In this document: in pieces, positions 50,758 through 61,027 of the stretch
Layout: every line of letters starts with the position of its first letter
How positions within the stretch are numbered: position 1 is the first letter of the stretch
The notes under the pieces: generated by a model
Told to the model about the DNA's origin: nothing
Seen by the model: the letters and a program-made list of their open reading frames with translations, nothing else
Databases searched by the model: none
From: Halosimplex rubrum
GTDB taxonomy: Archaea; Halobacteriota; Halobacteria; Halobacteriales; Haloarculaceae
DNA: 64,000 bases
Direction: 5' to 3'
NCBI RefSeq assembly: GCF_013415885.1
Contig: NZ_CP058910.1
Location: 3,844,001 to 3,908,000, forward strand
Made by a program: the position numbers and the translations under genes

Positions 50758-51519
50758 TCAGGCGACGCTGCGCGATTCGACCACGATGCCGGTACCCGAC
50801 CGCACCGAGTACCCGATGGTGTCCCCGACCTGCTCGCCCATACCGGCGAACCGGAGGACGCTGATCTGGCGGCGCACGTCGTTGCCGACCTCGATCATCT
50901 CCAGTTCGAGGAACACGTCGGCGATGGCCCGGAAGGGGCCGATCGCCTCCTCGTCGAGCGTCGAGGGGTCGACGGTCAGCATGATGACCTTCCCCTGGGA
51001 GATGATGTCCCGGAAGAAGGAGATGATCTCCAGAGCGGCCTGGCGCTCGTCGTTCTGGCGGACCAGCGCCTCGAACTTTGGGTCGTTGCGGAGGATGGCG
51101 TCGAAGGTGTCGATGATGACGACTTCCGAGTCCCACATCACCTCGGCCTCCATCAGCCGCTTGAGCAGCTCCTTGCGGTCGCCCTCCTCCTCCTGGCCGG
51201 AGAAGGTGTTCCCGTCGCCGATGTCGGCGTGGAGGAACAGCATGTCCTCGTCGAGGAGGTGCTCGACCATGCCGTAGTCCAGCGAGTGCATCTGGTCGAG
51301 GAAGCTCCCGACCGTGAGCTCGGTCGAGAGCATCGTCACCGAGTGGTCCTCCTCGCAGAGGCCGTAGGCGAAGCGCTGGCTGATCGCGGACTTGCCTGCG
51401 CCGTAGTCGCCCTCGACGAGGACGATGCTGCCGGGCGGGATACCGCCGCCCAGCTCCTTGTTGATCCGGTCGCGCTCCTTCAGTCCCAGTGAGAACAGAT
51501 CGTTGGTCGCGATGCTCAT
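50758..51519 (-). CDS. arlH: Archaellum regulatory ATPase ArlH (FlaH)
   Basis: The 253-residue RecA/KaiC-like protein has Walker [20 protein letters not shown] to GKSA, and the Walker B aspartate in [13 protein letters not shown]. It binds ATP, usually without hydrolysis, and regulates ArlI in the motor complex. It is conserved in length. The start overlaps the arlG stop by 4 bases. Confidence 0.95.
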
Positions 51520-52514: not shown

Positions 52515-52945
52515 CAGACGACCACCTCCGTGTCGGAGACGCCGGCCTCGGTCGCGAGTTTGACGCGACCGGGCGTTCCTTCCGGGGGGACCTCGATAGC
52601 GAGTCGCTCACCGGGGAGCCACAGGTACGTCCCCGCGTCGCCGTCGACGGTGGCGTTCGCTCGCCAGCCGGTCCGGTACTCGTTGTCGACCAGCAGATCC
52701 GTCTCGTTGAGCGACAGCGCCGTCGACCCGGTGTTGGTCGCCTCGACGGTCAGATCGCCCTCCGCGGTGGACGCCGAATCGATGTCGACCGCCGTGTTCT
52801 TCTGGTCGAGCAGTCCGTCCGACCGGTCGCTCTGGGCCTCCGAGACCCGTTCGAAGCTGTTGGCGGCGGCGGAGTGCCACATGCCGAACGCGATGAGCAG
52901 GCCGGCGAAGATCAACGCCGCGGACCCGCTAACGCTGAAGCCCAT
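52514..52945 (-). CDS. arlF: Archaellum stator protein ArlF (FlaF), first copy
   Basis: From ATG 52945 the protein has 143 residues; three more codons up to 52954 are possible. It starts GFSVSGSAALIFAGLLIAFG, as its twin downstream, and has the same outside domain with NTGSTALSLNETDLLVDNEYR and WLPGERLAIE. No cysteine is present. Its start lies inside the last codons of the arlCDE-like gene. Together the two copies suggest a gene duplication with later divergence. Confidence 0.87.
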   Translation of the reverse strand: MGFSVSGSAALIFAGLLIAFGMWHSAAANSFERVSEAQSDRSDGLLDQKNTAVDIDSASTAEGDLTVEATNTGSTALSLNETDLLVDNEYRTGWRANATVDGDAGTYLWLPGERLAIEVPPEGTPGRVKLATEAGVSDTEVVV

Positions 52946-54599
52946 CGGCTCCACCTCCCCGAGATCCCGCGAGTTTCGAGAGCGCGACGGCCTCGGCGGC
53001 GTCGCCGTCGAGCTGGCTGATGTATCGCAGGCTCTGGGTGTGGTGGTCGATCGTCAGTCCGCCCTCCTCACCCGAGCCGTCGAACCCGCGCAGGTACGCC
53101 TGCAGGTCCTCGGCGACCGGCTCGGCCACCCAGTCGATCCGCTCGTAGTAGTCGATGGCCCGCGCCGTCTCGCGGACGCCCACCCGGTCGACGAGGTACT
53201 CCAGCCACTCGACGACCACGAGTTCGCTCGCGATCCCCTCCGGCATCGTCGTCAGGTACGGCTTGCCGTCGGTGTCCGCTCCGTCGGTCGAAGCGTCGGC
53301 CGCCGACCGGGCAGCCGCGTCGGCCGCCCCGTCCGCGGCGTCGGCCGCCGGCTCGGACTCGGGCTCCGGGTCCGGCCCGGTCGCGTCGTCCGCGGTCGGC
53401 TCCGGCTCCGCGTCGGGTTCGGTGTCCGTCTCGACCTCGTCACCGATCCCGTCCATCTCGTCGTCGATCCCGTCGTCCTCGATGACCTCGTCGAAGAGGT
53501 CGTCGTCGGCCATGTCGCCGCCGTCCTCGCTGTCGTCGAGGAGGTCGTCGTCGGCCATGTCGCCGCCGTCCTCGCTGTCGTCGAGGAGGTCGTCGGCGTC
53601 TCCCAGGTCGTCCTCGAGCGAGTCCTCGCCCGGATCGTCTCCGGGTTCGCCCTCCAGTTCGTCGGCCCACTCGGCGTCGCCGGACTCGTACTCGTCTTTC
53701 AGTTCCGCGAAGGACTTGCCGCCCTCCCCGTCGGATGCGTCGCTCATGTCGTCGTTTCCTCCGTCGTCCGCGTCGTCGAAGTCGTCGTCCAGGCCGTCCG
53801 TCTCGTCGTCGAGGTCGTCCATCCCGCCGAACTCGTCGTCGTCCAGCGCGTCGTCGTCGAACGTCCCGCCGTCGTCCTCGAACGGGTCCAGGTCGTCGCC
53901 GTCACCGCCCATCACGTCGTCGACGCCGTCATCGGAGGGGCCCTCGTCCTCGACGAGGTCTTCGTCGAAGAAGCCCTCCGCGTCGGCGTTGGCGATCTCG
54001 TCGTCCAGGTCCTCGTCGTCGTCGTCGCCGTCGTCGCCGTCGTCGAAGAGGCCGAAGTTCCCGCCGCCGCCGGCGCCGCCCATCCCGCCGGGCTCCATGT
54101 CGTCGGCGAAGGGGTTGACGCCGCGGGTGACCATCTCGTAGATGTCCAGCAGCTTCCGGACGTTCTCCTCGACATCGTCGACGGTCTCGGCGATCTGCTC
54201 GTTCTCGTTGCGGACGGTGTTGACCGTCGAGGAGAGGCTCCCGACCTCGGTCTCCAGCTCGTCGAGGCGGTGTTCGAGTTCGTCCGTGTCCGCGCCGCCG
54301 CCGCCGTCGTCCATGTCGCCGAACTCGTCGCCGCCGAACTCGCCGAACTCGTCGCCGCCGTCGTCGTCGTCGAGGCCGCCGAAGCCGCCCAGCTCGTCGT
54401 CGTCACCGTCCTCGGCCATCAGCCCGCCGTCGGCCATGCTCTCGTCGTCCTCGCCGTCCCCGTCGTCGTCGCCGAAGATGTCGATCATCTGTCGGATACT
54501 CATCCCGAGGACGCCGCTGGTCAACACGACCAACAGCGCGGGGAGCGCATCCGACGCGCCCGGCGCGACCGGGCCCAACGACTGAGCGACGGGACTCAT
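52929..54599 (-). CDS. Archaellum switch-ring fusion protein (ArlC/D/E-like)
   Basis: The 556-residue protein has an N-terminal helix (residues ~15-38), an acidic linker, a coiled coil of the FlaC type (DELEHRLDELETEVGSLSS, about residues 103-155), a ~250-residue extremely acidic region of Asp, Glu and Gly, and a C-terminal FlaD/E domain with LTTMPEGIASELVVVEWLEY to EWLEY and TARAIDYYERIDWV. ArlCDE forms the cytoplasmic ring that receives CheF/CheY signals for switching. A perfect 45-base repeat occurs within the acidic part. Confidence 0.88.
   Translation of the reverse strand: MSPVAQSLGPVAPGASDALPALLVVLTSGVLGMSIRQMIDIFGDDDGDGEDDESMADGGLMAEDGDDDELGGFGGLDDDDGGDEFGEFGGDEFGDMDDGGGGADTDELEHRLDELETEVGSLSSTVNTVRNENEQIAETVDDVEENVRKLLDIYEMVTRGVNPFADDMEPGGMGGAGGGGNFGLFDDGDDGDDDDEDLDDEIANADAEGFFDEDLVEDEGPSDDGVDDVMGGDGDDLDPFEDDGGTFDDDALDDDEFGGMDDLDDETDGLDDDFDDADDGGNDDMSDASDGEGGKSFAELKDEYESGDAEWADELEGEPGDDPGEDSLEDDLGDADDLLDDSEDGGDMADDDLLDDSEDGGDMADDDLFDEVIEDDGIDDEMDGIGDEVETDTEPDAEPEPTADDATGPDPEPESEPAADAADGAADAAARSAADASTDGADTDGKPYLTTMPEGIASELVVVEWLEYLVDRVGVRETARAIDYYERIDWVAEPVAEDLQAYLRGFDGSGEEGGLTIDHHTQSLRYISQLDGDAAEAVALSKLAGSRGGGADGLQR
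53496..53585. repeat. 45-bp perfect tandem duplication in the arlCDE-like gene
   Basis: The 45-base unit beginning at 53496 is repeated exactly at 53541 and starts a third time at 53586 before diverging. It encodes the 15-residue acidic unit DDLLDDSEDGGDMAD. Exact identity points to a recent duplication. Confidence 0.85.
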
Positions 54600-54827
54600 T
54601 ACGTCGGTAAGTCCGCTCTAACACCCTTCAATGTATCGTTTCTAGTATCATTACTGATAATAGATGGGTTAATTCGAGGCTACCGACGTTGAACTAACGA
54701 CGAGCGAGCGGAAAGAAACGTCGGACGTAAATTTCGTCTCGAAAACGGTGAAATAAACGTATTCCCTGGAGACCCGACCGCGCGCCCGTCGGACGCGCGT
54801 CGGACGGACCGCTCCCTGTCCTGACAG

Positions 54828-55351: not shown

Positions 55352-56566
55352 TCAGAAGATCGTTTCCACGTCGGCCTCGGTCTGGTCGGCCCGTTCGACG
55401 AGCAACTCGTCGAGCGCCTGACGTAACTCCTTTTCGTTCGGCAGGGCGTGGATCTCGGCGCCGAACTGGATGTCGTCGGTCCGCATCTCCGAGTCGATGA
55501 TGAAGGCGTGTTCCTGGTGTTGCCCGACCTGGGCGGCCAGCGGGTCGACGACCGCCCGACCCATGTCGTGGACCAGCCGCGGCGGCGTGTGTTCGACGGA
55601 GGTCTGGAGCACGTTCGCCCAGCCGTCGACGAACCCCGAGGTCATGATGTTGCCCAGCTCCTCGATAGCGGCCTTGTGCTGGTCGGTCAGCTCGTCGGCG
55701 TCCATCTCGACCGGCATCATCGCCTCGGCGATGTGGACCGCCGAGGCCTCGTCGAACAACACGAGCAGGAACCCGCTCGGGACGCCCGTGAACTCGACGA
55801 CGGTCCCGACGTAGGTGTCGGTCCCGACCTGCTTGGGCACGTCCTCGATCGGCGCGAAACTGAGCCGGGTGACCTCCGCCTCGGTCTCGATCCCGGTCAT
55901 CATCTCGACGTTGGCGGCGGCCTGCTGGGTGCCGTCCTTGGTCATCTCGTTGAAGACCTCGAGCTTGTCGATCGGGATGGCGTCGTCCTCGGTGTCGCCG
56001 GTCCGGGCCATCACGTCCGCGAGCGGGTCGTACTCGGGGAACATGTAGATGTAGAAGCTCACCGACTCGCCGATCCACTCGATCTCGCTCTTGAAGACGA
56101 ACACCTGGTCGCGCTCGGCGTCCTCGGGGGGGTCCGGGAGCATCGCCGAGCCGTCGCCCGCCACGTACTCCGGCGGGGAGTGCTCGATGGTCGTCTCCAG
56201 GAAGTCCGCCCAGCCGTCGATGAACCCGCTCATCATGATGTTGCCGATCTCCTCGACGCTGGATCGAGCCATCGCCTCGTCGTCCGACCCGCCGGGGACC
56301 AGCGACTCGACGATCGTCTCGCTACCGGCCCGGTCGAACACGAGCACCGTGTCGCCCGCGAGCTCGCCGTCGAAGGCGAACTGGACGCCGACGTACTCCC
56401 CGTCGGTCAGCTGCTCGCCCACGTCCGCGCGGTCGACCAGCGTGATCTTCGTCACGTCGACGACGGCGTCCAGCCCGGTCATCTGGCACAGCGACTGGGT
56501 CGCCTGCTTGGCCCCCTCGTGAGCCAGACGGTTGAACGTCCCGAGCGACTGGACGTCGACTTTCAT
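55352..56566 (-). CDS. cheC: CheC-type phosphatase with two CheC domains
   Basis: The 404-residue protein is twice as long as the usual CheC of ~200 residues. Each half shows the phosphatase signature E-x2-N: SVEEIGNIMMSGFIDGWAD and AIEELGNIMTSGFVDGWAN, seen at about residues 105 and 305, both with intact glutamate and asparagine. CheC removes the phosphate from CheY-P and works with CheD. The gene starts 4 bases inside the cheY stop, and cheD follows, so the three are co-translated. Confidence 0.92.
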   Translation of the reverse strand: MKVDVQSLGTFNRLAHEGAKQATQSLCQMTGLDAVVDVTKITLVDRADVGEQLTDGEYVGVQFAFDGELAGDTVLVFDRAGSETIVESLVPGGSDDEAMARSSVEEIGNIMMSGFIDGWADFLETTIEHSPPEYVAGDGSAMLPDPPEDAERDQVFVFKSEIEWIGESVSFYIYMFPEYDPLADVMARTGDTEDDAIPIDKLEVFNEMTKDGTQQAAANVEMMTGIETEAEVTRLSFAPIEDVPKQVGTDTYVGTVVEFTGVPSGFLLVLFDEASAVHIAEAMMPVEMDADELTDQHKAAIEELGNIMTSGFVDGWANVLQTSVEHTPPRLVHDMGRAVVDPLAAQVGQHQEHAFIIDSEMRTDDIQFGAEIHALPNEKELRQALDELLVERADQTEADVETIF

Positions 56567-56922
56567 GACGGGACGACGTCCTCGATGGCTTCCATGACGC
56601 TCGGTTTCTGGAACGGTTTCGTGATGTAGCCGTCCGCGCCGGCCTTGACCGCCTCCTTCATCTTCTCCTCCTGGCCGACGCTGGTACACATGATGACGTT
56701 CGCCTCCGGATTGGAGGTCTTGATCTCGTCGGTCGCCTCGATCCCGTCGCGGATGGGCATCACGATGTCCATCATCACCAGGTCCGGCTCCGATTCCTTG
56801 TACGTCTCGACCGCCTCGACGCCGTTCTCCACCTCACCCACGATGTTGTGATCCTCCTCGAGGATCTCGCGTAGCAGGTTTCGCATGAACTCCGAGTCGT
56901 CGGCTATCAATACGTCTGACAT
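56563..56922 (-). CDS. cheY: Chemotaxis response regulator CheY
   Basis: The 119-residue receiver domain has the acidic pocket LIADDSEFM (Asp 8 and 9), the phosphorylation site Asp52 in LVMMDIVMP, the threonine/serine in CTSVGQEEK and the lysine in YITKPFQKP. It is phosphorylated by CheA and regulates motor switching through CheF and ArlCDE. The start is fixed by a strong ribosome binding site: GAGGTGAT at 56929-56936. Overlaps cheC by 4 bases. Confidence 0.97.
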   Translation of the reverse strand: MSDVLIADDSEFMRNLLREILEEDHNIVGEVENGVEAVETYKESEPDLVMMDIVMPIRDGIEATDEIKTSNPEANVIMCTSVGQEEKMKEAVKAGADGYITKPFQKPSVMEAIEDVVPS

Positions 56923-56936: not shown

Positions 56937-57049
56937 TCACGTACTGTGAAAACCCAGATAAAGCCTTCCCGTAAATTATCGGGATTGATAGCACCCGACG
57001 GCGTTCGAACGGGCCGCGGGCGGGCGGTTCGGGGATCGACTCGACCCCG

Positions 57050-57637
57050 TCAGATCCGGAACCCGTCCTCGTCGCCGACGGCGGCGATGAGGTCGGCGAT
57101 CGAGTCCTCGGGGGACAGCTCGGTCGATTCGAGCAGGCGTCGGAGGCTCGCCGGCGGGTAGCGGACCGGGACGTTGGCCTCCATCAGCAGGATACCCAGT
57201 ACCTCCTCGACGGGCGTCTTGCCGTCGATCTGCTGGGCGTACCAGAGCACGAGGCTCTCGAAGATCGTCACCACGTCGTTCGAGACCATCTGTCGCTGCC
57301 GGATCGACCCGTCGAACGTCGCCGTGATGTCGAAGCCGTATCGCGAGCCCGAATCGGAGAACTGCGTCGCGAGGAACTCGTGGACGTCCGCCTCCGTCAG
57401 CTCCGGGGGCTCCGCCGCCGGTTCGGCGGCCGGTTCCGGCGGCGTCTCGGGGGGCCGGTCGGCCGCCGACGTGTGGTCGTCGACCGCCGGCGTGTCCCCG
57501 ATGGGTTCGCCCGGCGAGACGACGTAGCGCCCGTCGTCGATCTCGGCGACGTGCTCGTCCTGCGTGATGTCGAGCTCGTCGGGCGAGAGGATGGGGCCGT
57601 CGTCTCCCTCGGTCGGCTCGTCGTCGCCTGTCACCAT
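57050..57637 (-). CDS. Acidic protein of the taxis/archaellum cluster, unknown (DUF7500-type)
   Basis: The 195-residue protein is acidic, with a proline-rich linker at about residues 60-82. The C-terminal half (about residues 85-195) is a folded domain with SNDVVTIFESLVLWYAQQI and VRYPPASLRRLLESTELSPE. No membrane helix or known motif. It lies between the archaellin and cheY genes on the same strand, so a role in archaellum regulation or taxis is plausible but unproven. The family name is recalled and not searched. Confidence 0.72.
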   Translation of the reverse strand: MVTGDDEPTEGDDGPILSPDELDITQDEHVAEIDDGRYVVSPGEPIGDTPAVDDHTSAADRPPETPPEPAAEPAAEPPELTEADVHEFLATQFSDSGSRYGFDITATFDGSIRQRQMVSNDVVTIFESLVLWYAQQIDGKTPVEEVLGILLMEANVPVRYPPASLRRLLESTELSPEDSIADLIAAVGDEDGFRI

Positions 57638-57695
57638 ACGCTGTTGTCCGCGATAAAAGGGTTTAGTTCCGTCGAATAAAAGGAATCCGACAGGT

Positions 57696-58373
57696 TTAGA
57701 GCTGGACCGCGTTGGCGCCCGAGATCGTTTCGGGGACGGTCAGCTGTTCGTTCGTGGTCGCACCGGACTTGGTGGTGATCTGGACGTTGATGGACGCGCC
57801 TTCGGGGATCTGGTCGCCGAAGTAGGTCTGCCCGTCACCACTGCCGTCACCGGTCTGCCGGCCCGTCCGCGTATCGAGCGACATCTTGTCGTCGGAGACC
57901 ACGTCGTCACGACCGAGGTCGAAGACCATCACCATACGGTCGTCGGGGTCGTTGAGTACCGGGTGGGAACCGTCGGAGTCCTTGAACGGCACGATACCGA
58001 AGTGCCCGTCCGAGCCGGACGCTTGGACGGTCGCGTTGACCAGGTTGTAGGTGCCCGAGGGGCCGACCCATTGGACAGTCGCGTTCTCGAGGTCGATATT
58101 ACTCGCCCCCGGGGACTTCTTCAACGTGAGGTTCACGACGCCGACCGAGGACTCACTGAGGTTCGTCCCCGTCGCCGCCGAAACTTGCAGCCGGTTGGTG
58201 ACCTGCTGTCCCGACTGTTGGCCCGTCTCTTCGGACTTCGTCTGCAGGAAGCCCGCCGTGTTGATTAGCACGCCTGCCGCGATCGCCGCCACCAGGACCA
58301 TCGCGATGAACACGATGAGGGTCCCGATACCGACCTGCCCGCGGTCTCGTTCGTTGCGTTCGTTGTGTAGCAT
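57696..58373 (-). CDS. Archaellin (archaellum filament protein)
   Basis: The 225-residue preprotein carries a short leader ending RDRG, the preflagellin peptidase site, then the filament helix [20 protein letters not shown]. The outer beta domain has at least four N-glycosylation sequons (NLS, NLT and two NAT), and the sequence is acidic with many Thr and Ser. It polymerises into the rotating archaellum filament. Only one archaellin is present here. A TATA-like CTTAATACG on the minus strand at 58434-58442 would give a leader of about 35 bases with GGAG before the ATG. Confidence 0.94.
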
Positions 58374-58621
58374 GGGATTCTCCGCCCGGGAACTTACGGT
58401 GCGCCCGGACTCTACTCCCAGAGTTCTACGCTTACGTATTAAGGGTGATCCCCCAATTATCGATATTAAAATCACACCATACCGGCACGTATCCCGTTCT
58501 CAGAGAGGAAAACAAGCGGTAGATAGTTTAAAACAGGTGTTTGTGTGGCGATAGCCAACAGAGACCGATCGACGAGGGCCCTAGTATTAATTGAAAGTAT
58601 GAGAATAGAGTTCGGTCCGAG

Positions 58622-58906
58622 TCACTCGTAGGTGACGAGACTGTACATGACGAAGAGGTAGCCGAAGGTCGTCAGCCCGCTGTTGACCAGCAACAGCGAC
58701 CGCGCCCCGGCGAACCCCGTCAGGAACGCACTGATCATCGTCGCGGCGGCGCCGGCGACCGCCAGCGAGAACCCCAGCGAGAGGTGAAGCATCGCCTGTC
58801 GGGACGTCTGCACGTACGCGCGCATGGCCATGCCGACCATCGTCAGTCCGGCGACGACGAAGACGAGCGTCGATACGGCGTAGAGTAGTTCGATCACTGT
58901 GACCAC
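58622..58906 (-). CDS. Small three-helix membrane protein (DUF7521-type)
   Basis: With GTG 58906 the product has 94 residues and three helices (about residues 7-25, 42-63 and 70-90); the ELLYAVSTLVFVVAGLTMVG start fits the haloarchaeal DUF7521-type. A frame-internal start at 58978 is less likely because a TATA-like ATTTAATAC box at 58932-58940 lies 26-34 bases before 58906. Its helices with LHLSLGF and many small residues suggest no transport motif. It lies between the archaellin gene and a winged-helix gene; function unknown. Confidence 0.72.
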   Translation of the reverse strand: MVTVIELLYAVSTLVFVVAGLTMVGMAMRAYVQTSRQAMLHLSLGFSLAVAGAAATMISAFLTGFAGARSLLLVNSGLTTFGYLFVMYSLVTYE

Positions 58907-59101
58907 GTTGGCTCGGCCTTCTCGACACCCCGTATTAAATCCACCCTCGAAAATATCTCTCGTGATAACAATCGACAAACCGGCAGAACGAGACCTGAGG
59001 CGGTCGGTTCGGGTACTTACCGTTCGGAGTGCGACGACGGCAGCGAAACGACGACCGACCGCCGCGGTCGGCGGTGCGCCGAGAACACGCGTGCGCGCGG
59101 T

Positions 59102-59437
59102 CTAGCCTTCCGAGAGTGTCCGCCAGGCTTCGTCGAGCTTGTTCGTGACCTCCGTCCGTTCCTCGACTTCCACGGTGAGCGACTCCTCGAAGTCGATGTG
59201 GACCGTATCGACGTTTCGTCGGTACACCTTGATGCGCCGCCGGTCGTCCGAGAGGATGTTGTCGTGGAGTTCGAGCAGGTCGTGTTCGGTCAACTCGTCG
59301 ATCCGGCGATAACAGGTGGCGATCGGGATCCCGAGTTCGTCGCTCAGTTCCTGGGCCGATTGGGGCTCGTCGGTCGCGTCCAGGATCTCTGCGCTGTATT
59401 TGTTCCCCAGGGTCTGGAGAATCTCGGCTGAAGCCAT
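59102..59437 (-). CDS. Winged-helix transcription regulator
   Basis: The 111-residue protein is a winged-helix DNA-binding protein: EILQTLGNKYSAEILDATDE then SAQELSDELGIPIATCYRRI as recognition helix and a wing around DDRRRIKVYRRNV. The C-terminus is a helical tail (EVEERTEVTNKLDEAW) probably for dimer formation. It lies between the archaellin and chemotaxis genes, so it may control the cluster, as such regulators do in other archaea. A GTATAAAT box at 59465-59472 is 28-35 bases upstream. Confidence 0.85.
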   Translation of the reverse strand: MASAEILQTLGNKYSAEILDATDEPQSAQELSDELGIPIATCYRRIDELTEHDLLELHDNILSDDRRRIKVYRRNVDTVHIDFEESLTVEVEERTEVTNKLDEAWRTLSEG

Positions 59438-59464
59438 CCGTTATCAAAACGTATATTTACCACA

Positions 59465-59472
59465 GTATAAAT
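59465..59472 (-). promoter_or_regulatory. TATA box of the winged-helix regulator
   Basis: ATTTATAC on the minus strand, 28-35 bases upstream of ATG 59437, consistent with a leaderless or nearly leaderless transcript. Confidence 0.6.
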
Positions 59473-59609
59473 CTATCGCTGCCAGTACTGCCAGGTTACC
59501 GAGGCGGCGACGGGAGCGGGGGATCCGTCTAAATCGCCCTTGAGAAAGTTCGAAACCCCTGTTTTACGAAGTAATAACCGGTTACAATCGTGAGAACGGG
59601 GCGGGTCGA

Positions 59610-60335
59610 CTACAGCGGGTTGTCGTCTTCGCTCATCATCGAGAACGCGCTGGCGTTCTGGTGGACGCGGATCCCGCCGTGGGAGATCTCCATCGGGAAG
59701 ATGTCGGTTTCGATGTCCTGTTTGCGCATCTTCGCGACCCAGACGTACCGGTTGACGCCCGACTCGGTCGGTGTCTGGATCAGGTAGATGTTCCCGTCGG
59801 TGAGGTAGTTCTCCAGCCCGATCTCCGTCTCGGGGAAGACGGCGCCCTGTTCGTTGGTCATCAGCGTCGTCAGGTCGTTCTGACTGAGGATGTCCGTGAA
59901 CTTCAGGAGGTACGTGCGTTTCTCCTGTTCGTTCTCGAAAAAGAGCTCGAACATCGCCAGCGAGTCGAGGACGACCCGGTCGTAGTCGTTGTCCTCGAAG
60001 TCGTCCAGCAGGAGTTCGAGCGACGAGGAGAAGTCGTTCTCCCGCAGCAGGACCTTCTTGTCGTAGACCTTGATGTCGCCGTTGTCGACGTACTCGCCCC
60101 ACTTGTCGAAGCCGATCGATTCGGCCGCCTCACGCAGGTCCTCCTCGTCCTCCTCGAAGGTCAGGTAGATTCCCTTTTCGTCGAACTGCTCGACGCCGTT
60201 GTAGATGAACTGCAGACAGAGGATGCTCTTGCCCGCCCCGGGATTCCCGCTCACCAGGGTGGTCGAATTTTTGACAATACCACCGTTCAGGATCTCGTCC
60301 AACCCGTCGATGCCGGTTTTCGTTAGTTCGATCAT
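59610..60335 (-). CDS. KaiC/RAD55-type ATPase (HTR-like protein)
   Basis: The 241-residue RecA-superfamily protein begins TKTGIDGLDEILNGGIVKN and has Walker A SGNPGAGKSILCLQFIY, a paired glutamate in LTFEEDEEDLRE and the Walker B aspartate in RVVLDSLAMFELFF. It is related to KaiC and to ArlH, both regulators of motility complexes. In haloarchaeal taxis clusters a gene of this kind is labelled HTR-like. Whether it acts on receptors or the motor is unknown. A TATA-like T-rich box (60391-60398) lies ~55 bases upstream. Confidence 0.85.
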   Translation of the reverse strand: MIELTKTGIDGLDEILNGGIVKNSTTLVSGNPGAGKSILCLQFIYNGVEQFDEKGIYLTFEEDEEDLREAAESIGFDKWGEYVDNGDIKVYDKKVLLRENDFSSSLELLLDDFEDNDYDRVVLDSLAMFELFFENEQEKRTYLLKFTDILSQNDLTTLMTNEQGAVFPETEIGLENYLTDGNIYLIQTPTESGVNRYVWVAKMRKQDIETDIFPMEISHGGIRVHQNASAFSMMSEDDNPL

Positions 60336-60494: not shown

Positions 60495-60944
60495 TTACCC
60501 GGAGTGGACGGCCTTCGGGTCGACCCAGATGACGAACCCGTCGTCGCGCTTGACGACGCCGTGGATGGCGTCCTGGTCCCGCGAGGGGGAGTCGTCGACC
60601 TCCGACCCGTCGACGTGGACGACCTGGTACACCTCGTCGACCAGCCAGCCGGCGGCGCCCTGGTCGTCGACGATCGCCGGGTCGAAGACGATGATCCGCC
60701 GCTCGGCGCCGTCGCCGTCGATGCCGAAGACGACCTTCGGGTCGACGATCGATGTCGTGCGCCCGCGCAGGTCCATCACGCCCCGGACGTGCGGCGGCGA
60801 GTTGGGAACGGTCGTCACCTCGCCGGCGTCGACGATCTCTGTCACGTAGTCGATGCTCACGCAGTAGGTCTCTTCGCCCAGCGAGAACTCCAGGACCTGT
60901 CCGTCCGTCGCCGTCGGCGCCGCGTTCTGAGTACCTGATGCCAT
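60495..60944 (-). CDS. cheW: Chemotaxis coupling protein CheW
   Basis: The 149-residue protein is a CheW domain: VLEFSLGEETYCVSIDYVTE, VTTVPNSPPHVRGVMDLRGR to GVMDLRGR, and VDPKVVFGID. It bridges receptors and CheA. Its gene lies head to head with cheB, 188 bases apart. A CTTAAG box at 60980-60986 is about 38 bases upstream. Confidence 0.95.
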   Translation of the reverse strand: MASGTQNAAPTATDGQVLEFSLGEETYCVSIDYVTEIVDAGEVTTVPNSPPHVRGVMDLRGRTTSIVDPKVVFGIDGDGAERRIIVFDPAIVDDQGAAGWLVDEVYQVVHVDGSEVDDSPSRDQDAIHGVVKRDDGFVIWVDPKAVHSG

Positions 60945-61027
60945 GGGTGGCCGTTGCCCGAAAGAGCCCGCGACGGCGACTTAAGCGTGTCTCCCGGGTT
61001 ATCAACGCTGATACGGCGGGCGGAGTC

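Follow-up and report, generated by a model that had tools for sequence, protein, structure and literature searches.

A probable CsmR/CirA regulatory locus among the archaellum and taxis genes of Halosimplex rubrum, with DUF7521 as a candidate membrane partner

In Haloferax volcanii, the winged-helix gene csmR (hvo_1209, HVO_1209) is required for motility and its product binds archaellum (arl) and chemotaxis (che) promoters in vivo at TATCA-N4-TGATA, an operator discovered by chromatin immunoprecipitation (ChIP) in that one species (PMC13286277, June 2026). CsmR has a common regulon with the KaiC-like protein CirA, and both genes influence cell shape (PMC13286277); CirA has also been placed in the density response of H. 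volcanii (PMC12240190, 2025). Here we describe a stretch of 64,000 nucleotides from Halosimplex rubrum (NZ_CP058910.1, positions 3,844,001 to 3,908,000; “the window”) in which orthologues of csmR and cirA lie between an archaellin gene and cheW, together with a gene for a membrane protein of the family DUF7521. A gene of the family DUF7500 is found nearby.

CirA is said to have been first reported by a 2024 study. Our data confirm the two known regulators and extend them, by way of their operators, to the genus Halosimplex; the new candidates are DUF7521, as a partner of CsmR, and DUF7500, as a protein tied to the archaellum. The best explanation for the whole, which we consider probable, is that these genes form the regulatory locus of CsmR and CirA in a Halosimplex-like haloarchaeon, with DUF7521 as the membrane partner of CsmR. 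The parts of it that we show directly are orthology, synteny, operators, their fixed spacing and co-occurrence.

Orthologues of CsmR and CirA and their distribution

A preliminary description of the window had presented four minus-strand genes between archaellin and cheW as unassigned, possibly forming a switch that links archaellum synthesis with taxis. Reading frames and family scans confirmed the four genes at roughly the positions given, and the winged helix, the acidic composition of one product (44 Asp and Glu versus 10 Lys and Arg in 195 amino acids) and the three-helix fold of another (AlphaFold2 model, mean predicted local distance difference test score (pLDDT) 88.8; Pfam DUF7521) were borne out as well. 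Three of the genes do lie between archaellin and cheW; that of the acidic DUF7500 protein is instead downstream of archaellin, and the range 57050-60335 assigned to the group also includes the archaellin gene itself. The view that all four were unassigned had to be abandoned, as two of them, the winged-helix gene and the KaiC-like ATPase gene, match the published regulators CsmR and CirA.

The winged-helix gene encodes 111 amino acids with an HTH_20 domain, comparable to the ~13 kDa winged helix encoded beside archaellin genes in H. volcanii, and TATCA-N4-TGATA is found near TATA at arl and che promoters of the window. As in H. volcanii, a small winged helix adjoins archaellin genes, the operator stands beside TATA and the targets, here predicted, include both arl and che genes. 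The protein is 58-60% identical to copies from two Haloferax-type loci (L104 and L126). CsmR has been filed as an Lrp/AsnC regulator on the basis of structure models (PMC13286277); in our Pfam scan the window protein fell outside this class, with an HTH_AsnC-type score of 16.8 bits versus a cut-off of 27 and no match to the AsnC ligand domain at E ≤1. EarA of methanogens and Pyrococcus is likewise a winged-helix regulator of archaellum genes; it has no similarity to CsmR according to PMC13286277, and we set it apart solely by that paper's description.

The product of the cirA orthologue has KaiC as its best PDB match (E 2.5e-43), a single PF06745 domain over residues 6-227, GNPGAGKS as Walker A motif and the paired glutamates within FEED. 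Like CirA of H. volcanii, it has one KaiC domain and is encoded adjacent to csmR. With a Haloferax-type copy (G078), taken in place of the H. volcanii protein, it shares about 65% identity, and its activity in Halosimplex is predicted. The preliminary description had related this ATPase to ArlH. Its KaiC-like nature stands, but its kinship with ArlH holds only at the superfamily level, and we rejected it as a second ArlH (NF052589, 48.3 bits versus a cut-off of 215). Nor is it a circadian KaiC, given its 241 amino acids, single domain and TIGR02655 score (87.6 bits versus 546).

To compare gene order we used two sets of loci. Set A consisted of 60 regions (L070-L129) picked non-randomly, mostly around csmR, DUF7500 or ArlH matches; one of them, L110, is a further stretch of the window's own genome (G000). 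Set B consisted of 80 loci with species names (L130-L209), the best 80 of 158 relatives found via cirA. H. volcanii is absent from set B and other Haloferax species were used as stand-ins. The two sets share species and were therefore tallied separately for gene distances. Among nine loci compared, the window DNA was nearest to that of Halosimplex pelagicum (93.1% over 13,470 summed aligned bases).

All 39 set A loci with a full-length cirA contained csmR (33 within 500 bp), as did 79 of the 80 cirA-found loci in set B (59 within 500 bp). The two genes stand in tandem in family f1; in family f4 most pairs either face each other with their 3' ends or have archaellins between them. Across several families, csmR is near archaellin in many loci. 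In the window, cirA is followed immediately and in tandem by csmR, and csmR by DUF7521. The Haloferax loci of set B differ: no DUF7521 adjoins csmR, DUF7500 is divergent from csmR with archaellins downstream, and cirA has the opposite orientation at a distance of ~1.8 kb.

Co-occurrence with archaellum genes, named in the preliminary description as a check on the proposed switch, was found in a survey of 145 genomes of the class, 113 of which have ArlH over its cut-off. Strict CsmR matches (E ≤1e-27) occurred in 82 of these 113 genomes compared to 3 of the 32 without ArlH, and CirA (E ≤1e-40) in 67 compared to 4. These figures are hand counts in which some no-match genomes were obtained by subtraction, and the exact tests ignore kinship among genomes, which overstates their significance. 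The contrast was weak for lax CsmR matches (E ≤1e-20; 100/113 versus 22/32), because one family, f3, keeps a more distant copy also without ArlH. Some archaellated genomes thus lack close copies of csmR or of cirA, and the distant CsmR copies have no fixed tie to the archaellum. Another or a diverged regulator may be acting in the 13 genomes that have ArlH and no CsmR match at 1e-20 (G019, G020, G022, G036, G037, G049, G057, G082, G087, G099, G100, G130 and G132).

Two further observations concern genomes below the ArlH cut-off. G017, G074 and G090 have kept close copies of both csmR and cirA, the archaellum being judged here by ArlH alone, and the pair may therefore have a role beyond the archaellum. 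This differs from the strict rule in PMC13286277, where csmR is always found together with archaellin genes in Halobacteria. In G060 (locus L086) the arl/che cluster looks decayed: archaellin, ArlF and ArlG are still present, but a stop splits the csmR match and no ArlH exceeds its cut-off.

Predicted CsmR operators in the window and in related loci

We scored the window with a 36-base model of operator plus TATA that was trained on 240 sites from other genera, all of them belonging to the same five main target classes that are described below. The six top places were the promoters of DUF7521, cheY, arlCE, cheW, cheB and archaellin, while the seventh scored only 15.8 (Table 1). The archaellin promoter, which the preliminary description had proposed as a binding target (58374-58480), does contain a site of this type, in degenerate form. 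Counted without the model, seven sites with up to two mismatches were found in the window versus 1.88 expected, and none of 100 shuffles reached seven.

Table 1. Genes and predicted CsmR operators in the window (bit scores with family cut-offs where available; operator scores from the 36-base model).
Feature	Position	Strand	Basis
ArlH (true)	50758-51519		NF052589, 325.2 bits
arlCE	52929-54599		
CsmR operator (predicted), arlCE promoter	54646-54659	-	exact match; score 36.8
cheY	56563-56922	-	PF00072, 111.3 bits
CsmR operator (predicted), cheY promoter	56977-56990	-	1 mismatch; score 38.3
DUF7500, acidic archaellum-associated protein, 195 amino acids	57050-57637	-	PF24332, 229 bits vs cut-off 27, E 5.8e-68
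archaellin (arlA)	57696-58373	-	PF01917, 120.9 bits
degenerate CsmR operator (predicted), archaellin promoter	58458-58471	-	3 mismatches; 14 bp before CTTAATA; score 24.6, sixth
DUF7521, candidate CsmR partner, membrane protein with three helices	~58622-58906	-	PF24365, 31.7 bits vs cut-off 27, E 1.9e-7
CsmR operator (predicted), DUF7521 promoter	58954-58967	-	1 mismatch; score 43.2, window maximum; TATA 14 bp on
csmR orthologue, winged-helix regulator, 111 amino acids	59102-59437	-	HTH_20, 49 bits vs cut-off 27
cirA orthologue, single-domain KaiC-like ATPase, 241 amino acids	59610-60335	-	PF06745, 171.6 bits
cheW	60495-60944	-	PF01584, 91.6 bits
CsmR operator (predicted), common to divergent cheW (-) and cheB (+) promoters	61000-61013	- and +	exact match; score 32.8 on -, 27.6 on +

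In the whole genome (4.48 Mb) the exact motif occurs three times: at arlCE, at cheW/cheB and, ~114 kb away from the arlCE copy, upstream of a chemoreceptor gene. Allowing one mismatch raised the total to 43 places, compared to 16 for the reversed pattern. When these 43 sites and the two-mismatch sites of the window were scored with the model, four genes encoding signalling domains of methyl-accepting chemotaxis proteins (MCPs) were found under high-scoring sites (G000:C1:1886830, 3784302, 3734576 and 2994605); HAMP domains are present in three of the four. The list is not clean, because genes without a Pfam match, a histidine kinase, a DUF7289 gene and unlikely frames also scored highly. As far as sequence can tell, the CsmR regulon likely extends to chemoreceptors.

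For the fetched loci we pooled sets A and B, repeats included, and counted motifs with up to one mismatch upstream of each gene; here and in the spacing analysis, genes below fixed score cut-offs and upstream stretches shorter than 150 bases were excluded. Motifs were found upstream of cheY in 101/115 cases, cheW in 37/52, DUF7521 in 55/71 and cheB in 22/31. The first archaellin (55/118), arlCE (64/136), csmR (52/132) and cirA (24/118) followed, DUF7500 (3/110) and ArlI (3/69) had few, and none was found at CheC, CheD, ArlF, ArlG or ArlH. Among 29 permuted palindromes used as controls, class means were at most 1.3 and the maximum was 7.

Spacing was examined on distinct 40-mers. In the five main target classes TATA lies at a fixed distance, starting ~15 bases after the motif, and within each class the positions +16, +18 and +19 are 94-100% A or T. 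The operator ends 14 bases before TATA and leaves it uncovered; an operator upstream of TATA, rather than over it, fits activation in archaeal promoters. The sites upstream of csmR and cirA showed no comparable A/T peak. Several csmR promoters of the Haloarcula type (L091, L112 and L173) have a TATA-like stretch that begins ~2 bases past the motif instead of 14, which would fit self-repression.

It could be argued that CsmR and CirA serve chiefly cell shape or other processes here and are merely neighbors of the arl/che cluster. Both genes do affect cell shape in Haloferax (PMC13286277), the three genomes described above keep the pair without ArlH over its cut-off, and distant CsmR-like matches are frequent in genomes without ArlH. 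Operators nevertheless stand at six arl, che and DUF7521 promoters of the window, as well as upstream of chemoreceptor genes in the rest of the genome, and we regard this explanation as very improbable. That part of the preliminary description which proposed an archaellum-taxis switch is supported for the winged-helix and KaiC-like genes, given their published Haloferax orthologues and the operators found here.

DUF7521 as a candidate partner of CsmR

The DUF7521 gene of the window starts with GTG, a longer TTG start at 58978 being possible. In 32 of 52 set A loci and 38 of 79 set B loci, a DUF7521 gene was 300 bp or less away from csmR, either downstream in tandem or divergent. These csmR-linked copies form one group: they score 103-151 bits with their own profile versus 40 or less for other copies, a gap that is partly due to construction because the profile was built from the group itself. 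Their invariant residues include E6, Y9, Y31, N75 and S89 (28 sequences).

The family is much wider than this group, with 1 to 12 matches per genome in 144 of 145 genomes. We examined 46 DUF7521 genes, which were drawn from the 8 best in the survey, 30 of the 36 rows of six genomes (2 of the 30 already among the 8 best; the 6 other rows lacked an examined locus) and the 11 rows of G000, one of which was dropped as a fragment of another gene. A CsmR-type winged-helix gene (E ≤2e-11) was found upstream on the same strand, within the same 3 kb, for 41 of the 46, or 39 of 44 when the two csmR cases are left out. With the in-frame DUF7521 start set as close as possible to the stop of the upstream gene, 30 of the 41 pairs were within 20 nt and 19 overlapped by exactly 4 nt; at least four paired DUF7521 genes are second copies of a tandem pair (L214, L235, L237 and L242). 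Five DUF7521 genes had no such winged helix in the 3 kb and are possible orphans: L213 (G000:C1:1676076), L225, L226, L227 and L247. Control DNA of ~200 kb, made up of 41 stretches of which some overlap, contained a single such winged-helix gene, and this gene shared its stretch with the DUF7521 gene at 2482357.

Distances among the winged helices and among their DUF7521 neighbors were correlated (r 0.758, 35 pairs; 0 of 999 permutations as high). Six of the 41 pairs were excluded, namely three from tandem clusters that were already represented (L216, L235 and L237), the csmR pairs (L219 and L246) and one at a contig edge (L244). Co-duplication of linked genes would also produce such a correlation. 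Foldseek with the DUF7521 model gave no match at E ≤0.001, and literature searches by the name DUF7521, and for membrane-anchored regulators combined with archaellum, returned no matching paper.

The simplest reading of DUF7521 is that of a cognate membrane partner of the regulator, which might act as inhibitor, anchor or sensor alike. What is new here, a DUF7521 gene beside csmR under the same operator and the frequent pairing of other DUF7521 genes with CsmR-type winged helices, suggests a recurring module of regulator plus membrane partner. A similar logic is known from the LytTR systems HdrRM and BrsRM, where a DNA-binding regulator is encoded with a membrane partner and expression is operator-controlled (PMC6193735). 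Those families are unrelated, and their membrane proteins are reported to inhibit, which for DUF7521 we only propose. We considered whether CsmR/DUF7521 might itself be a LytTR system; no LytTR match was found at E ≤1, and the regulator is a winged helix instead.

Alternatively, DUF7521 might be just another CsmR target, a motility-related membrane protein that does not act on CsmR. Its promoter has the same operator-TATA layout as arl and che promoters, and csmR functions without it in Haloferax-type loci; however, a mere motility target would leave unexplained why most DUF7521 genes away from csmR also have a CsmR-type winged helix close by, in many cases overlapping or nearly so. We therefore find this alternative somewhat unlikely.

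Several points weigh against a CsmR/CirA switch with DUF7521 as its membrane partner. Of the 113 archaellated genomes, CirA matches at 1e-40 are missing from 46 and CsmR matches at 1e-20 from 13, and CsmR/CirA are therefore not the sole way to run an archaellum. The archaellin site of the window is degenerate, and roughly every second locus has no site at arlCE or at the archaellin. In 20 of 52 set A and 41 of 79 set B loci no DUF7521 gene lies 300 bp or less from csmR; the loci of Haloferax, Halogeometricum, Halobellus and Salinigranum that show csmR (L130-L148 except L145) all lack one beside it, and CsmR can therefore work without DUF7521. In 16 of 17 genomes lacking DUF7521 beside csmR, the profile of the csmR-linked group reached 36 bits at most; the seventeenth, G129, gave 94 and 69 bits. 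Contact between CsmR and DUF7521 is something we infer. Finally, deletion of csmR in Haloferax led to higher arl and che transcripts, yet motility was lost (PMC13286277), so that for the sign of CsmR control, which we also infer, this rise stands beside an operator position that fits activation.

DUF7500 and the proposed regulatory scheme

DUF7500 was over its family cut-off in 112 of the 113 genomes with ArlH and in 1 of the 32 without. The two exceptions are G021, whose match is below the cut-off, and G060, the genome with the decayed arl cluster. As a marker of archaellum-linked taxis, CheD was rejected (122 of 145 genomes); since it is present also in many genomes without ArlH, we took CheF, which occurs in 92 genomes, all with ArlH. 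The 21 archaellated genomes that lack CheF all had DUF7500 over cut-off, but in 18 of these the match ended at profile position 167 or earlier, whereas the best copies reach 185-187 in the 91 CheF genomes with a match over cut-off (hand counts, as above). Two short alignment rows (L083 and L084) stop before this tail. The body of DUF7500 thus appears to follow the archaellum and the tail mostly to follow CheF, though the events are few and the genomes related. A second match, early-ending as in most CheF-less genomes, was observed in the CheF genomes G026, G063, G088, G109, G122, G124 and G139, a hint of a second type of archaellum that is not coupled to taxis.

Modelled with AlphaFold2 (35 sequences, mean pLDDT 78.8), the conserved part of DUF7500 has a helix and two strands followed by helices. 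Foldseek gave no match at E ≤0.001 and further structure comparison reached Z ≤3.9, a lack of matches that does not by itself speak for a new fold; a literature search by the name DUF7500 found no paper. By gene order, it is probably hvo_1208 of H. volcanii. Judged by its occurrence, DUF7500 is probably an accessory archaellum protein.

On the other hand, DUF7500 might be a regulator or taxis adaptor of the switch, as its inclusion in the preliminary description implied. It adjoins cheY or csmR in many loci and its tail follows the taxis adaptor CheF. Against this, the protein is retained in every CheF-less archaellated genome, the Pfam scan found no DNA-binding family in it, and an operator of its own is almost absent; its membership in the CsmR regulon by such an operator was rejected, the 3 of 110 upstream regions lying within the control maximum of 7. 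A regulatory role for DUF7500 is thus fairly unlikely. Nothing marks it as a regulator. The other unpublished member of the proposed switch, DUF7521, is linked to CsmR, in a role that would be that of a partner.

We propose the following scheme. CsmR would bind TATCA-N4-TGATA 14 bp upstream of TATA in the promoters of archaellin, arlCE, cheY, cheW/cheB and receptor genes, and would thereby control archaellum and taxis genes jointly. CirA, as supported in Haloferax and presumed for Halosimplex, would tune the output of CsmR by growth state. DUF7521 may bind CsmR and restrain or gate it at the membrane, and the predicted operator at the DUF7521 promoter, the strongest in the window, would close a feedback loop. 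DUF7500 would stand outside this loop as an archaellum accessory protein.

In many haloarchaeal genera the CsmR operator is found again at orthologous promoters, and it also stands at chemoreceptor genes; parts of the regulon can therefore be read from sequence. DUF7500 emerges as an overlooked protein whose presence and absence follow the archaellum. DUF7521 is a candidate membrane partner for an archaellum regulator, and its pairing with winged helices recurs. We can envisage, while stopping short of calling it probable, that CsmR is a member of a large undescribed haloarchaeal class in which a CsmR-type winged-helix regulator is co-produced with a DUF7521 partner, which would sense a cue in the membrane or from outside the cell and either retain the regulator or let it go. 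If this is true, the archaellum switch would be membrane-gated in many lineages, and Haloferax, the studied case, would be one without the gate.

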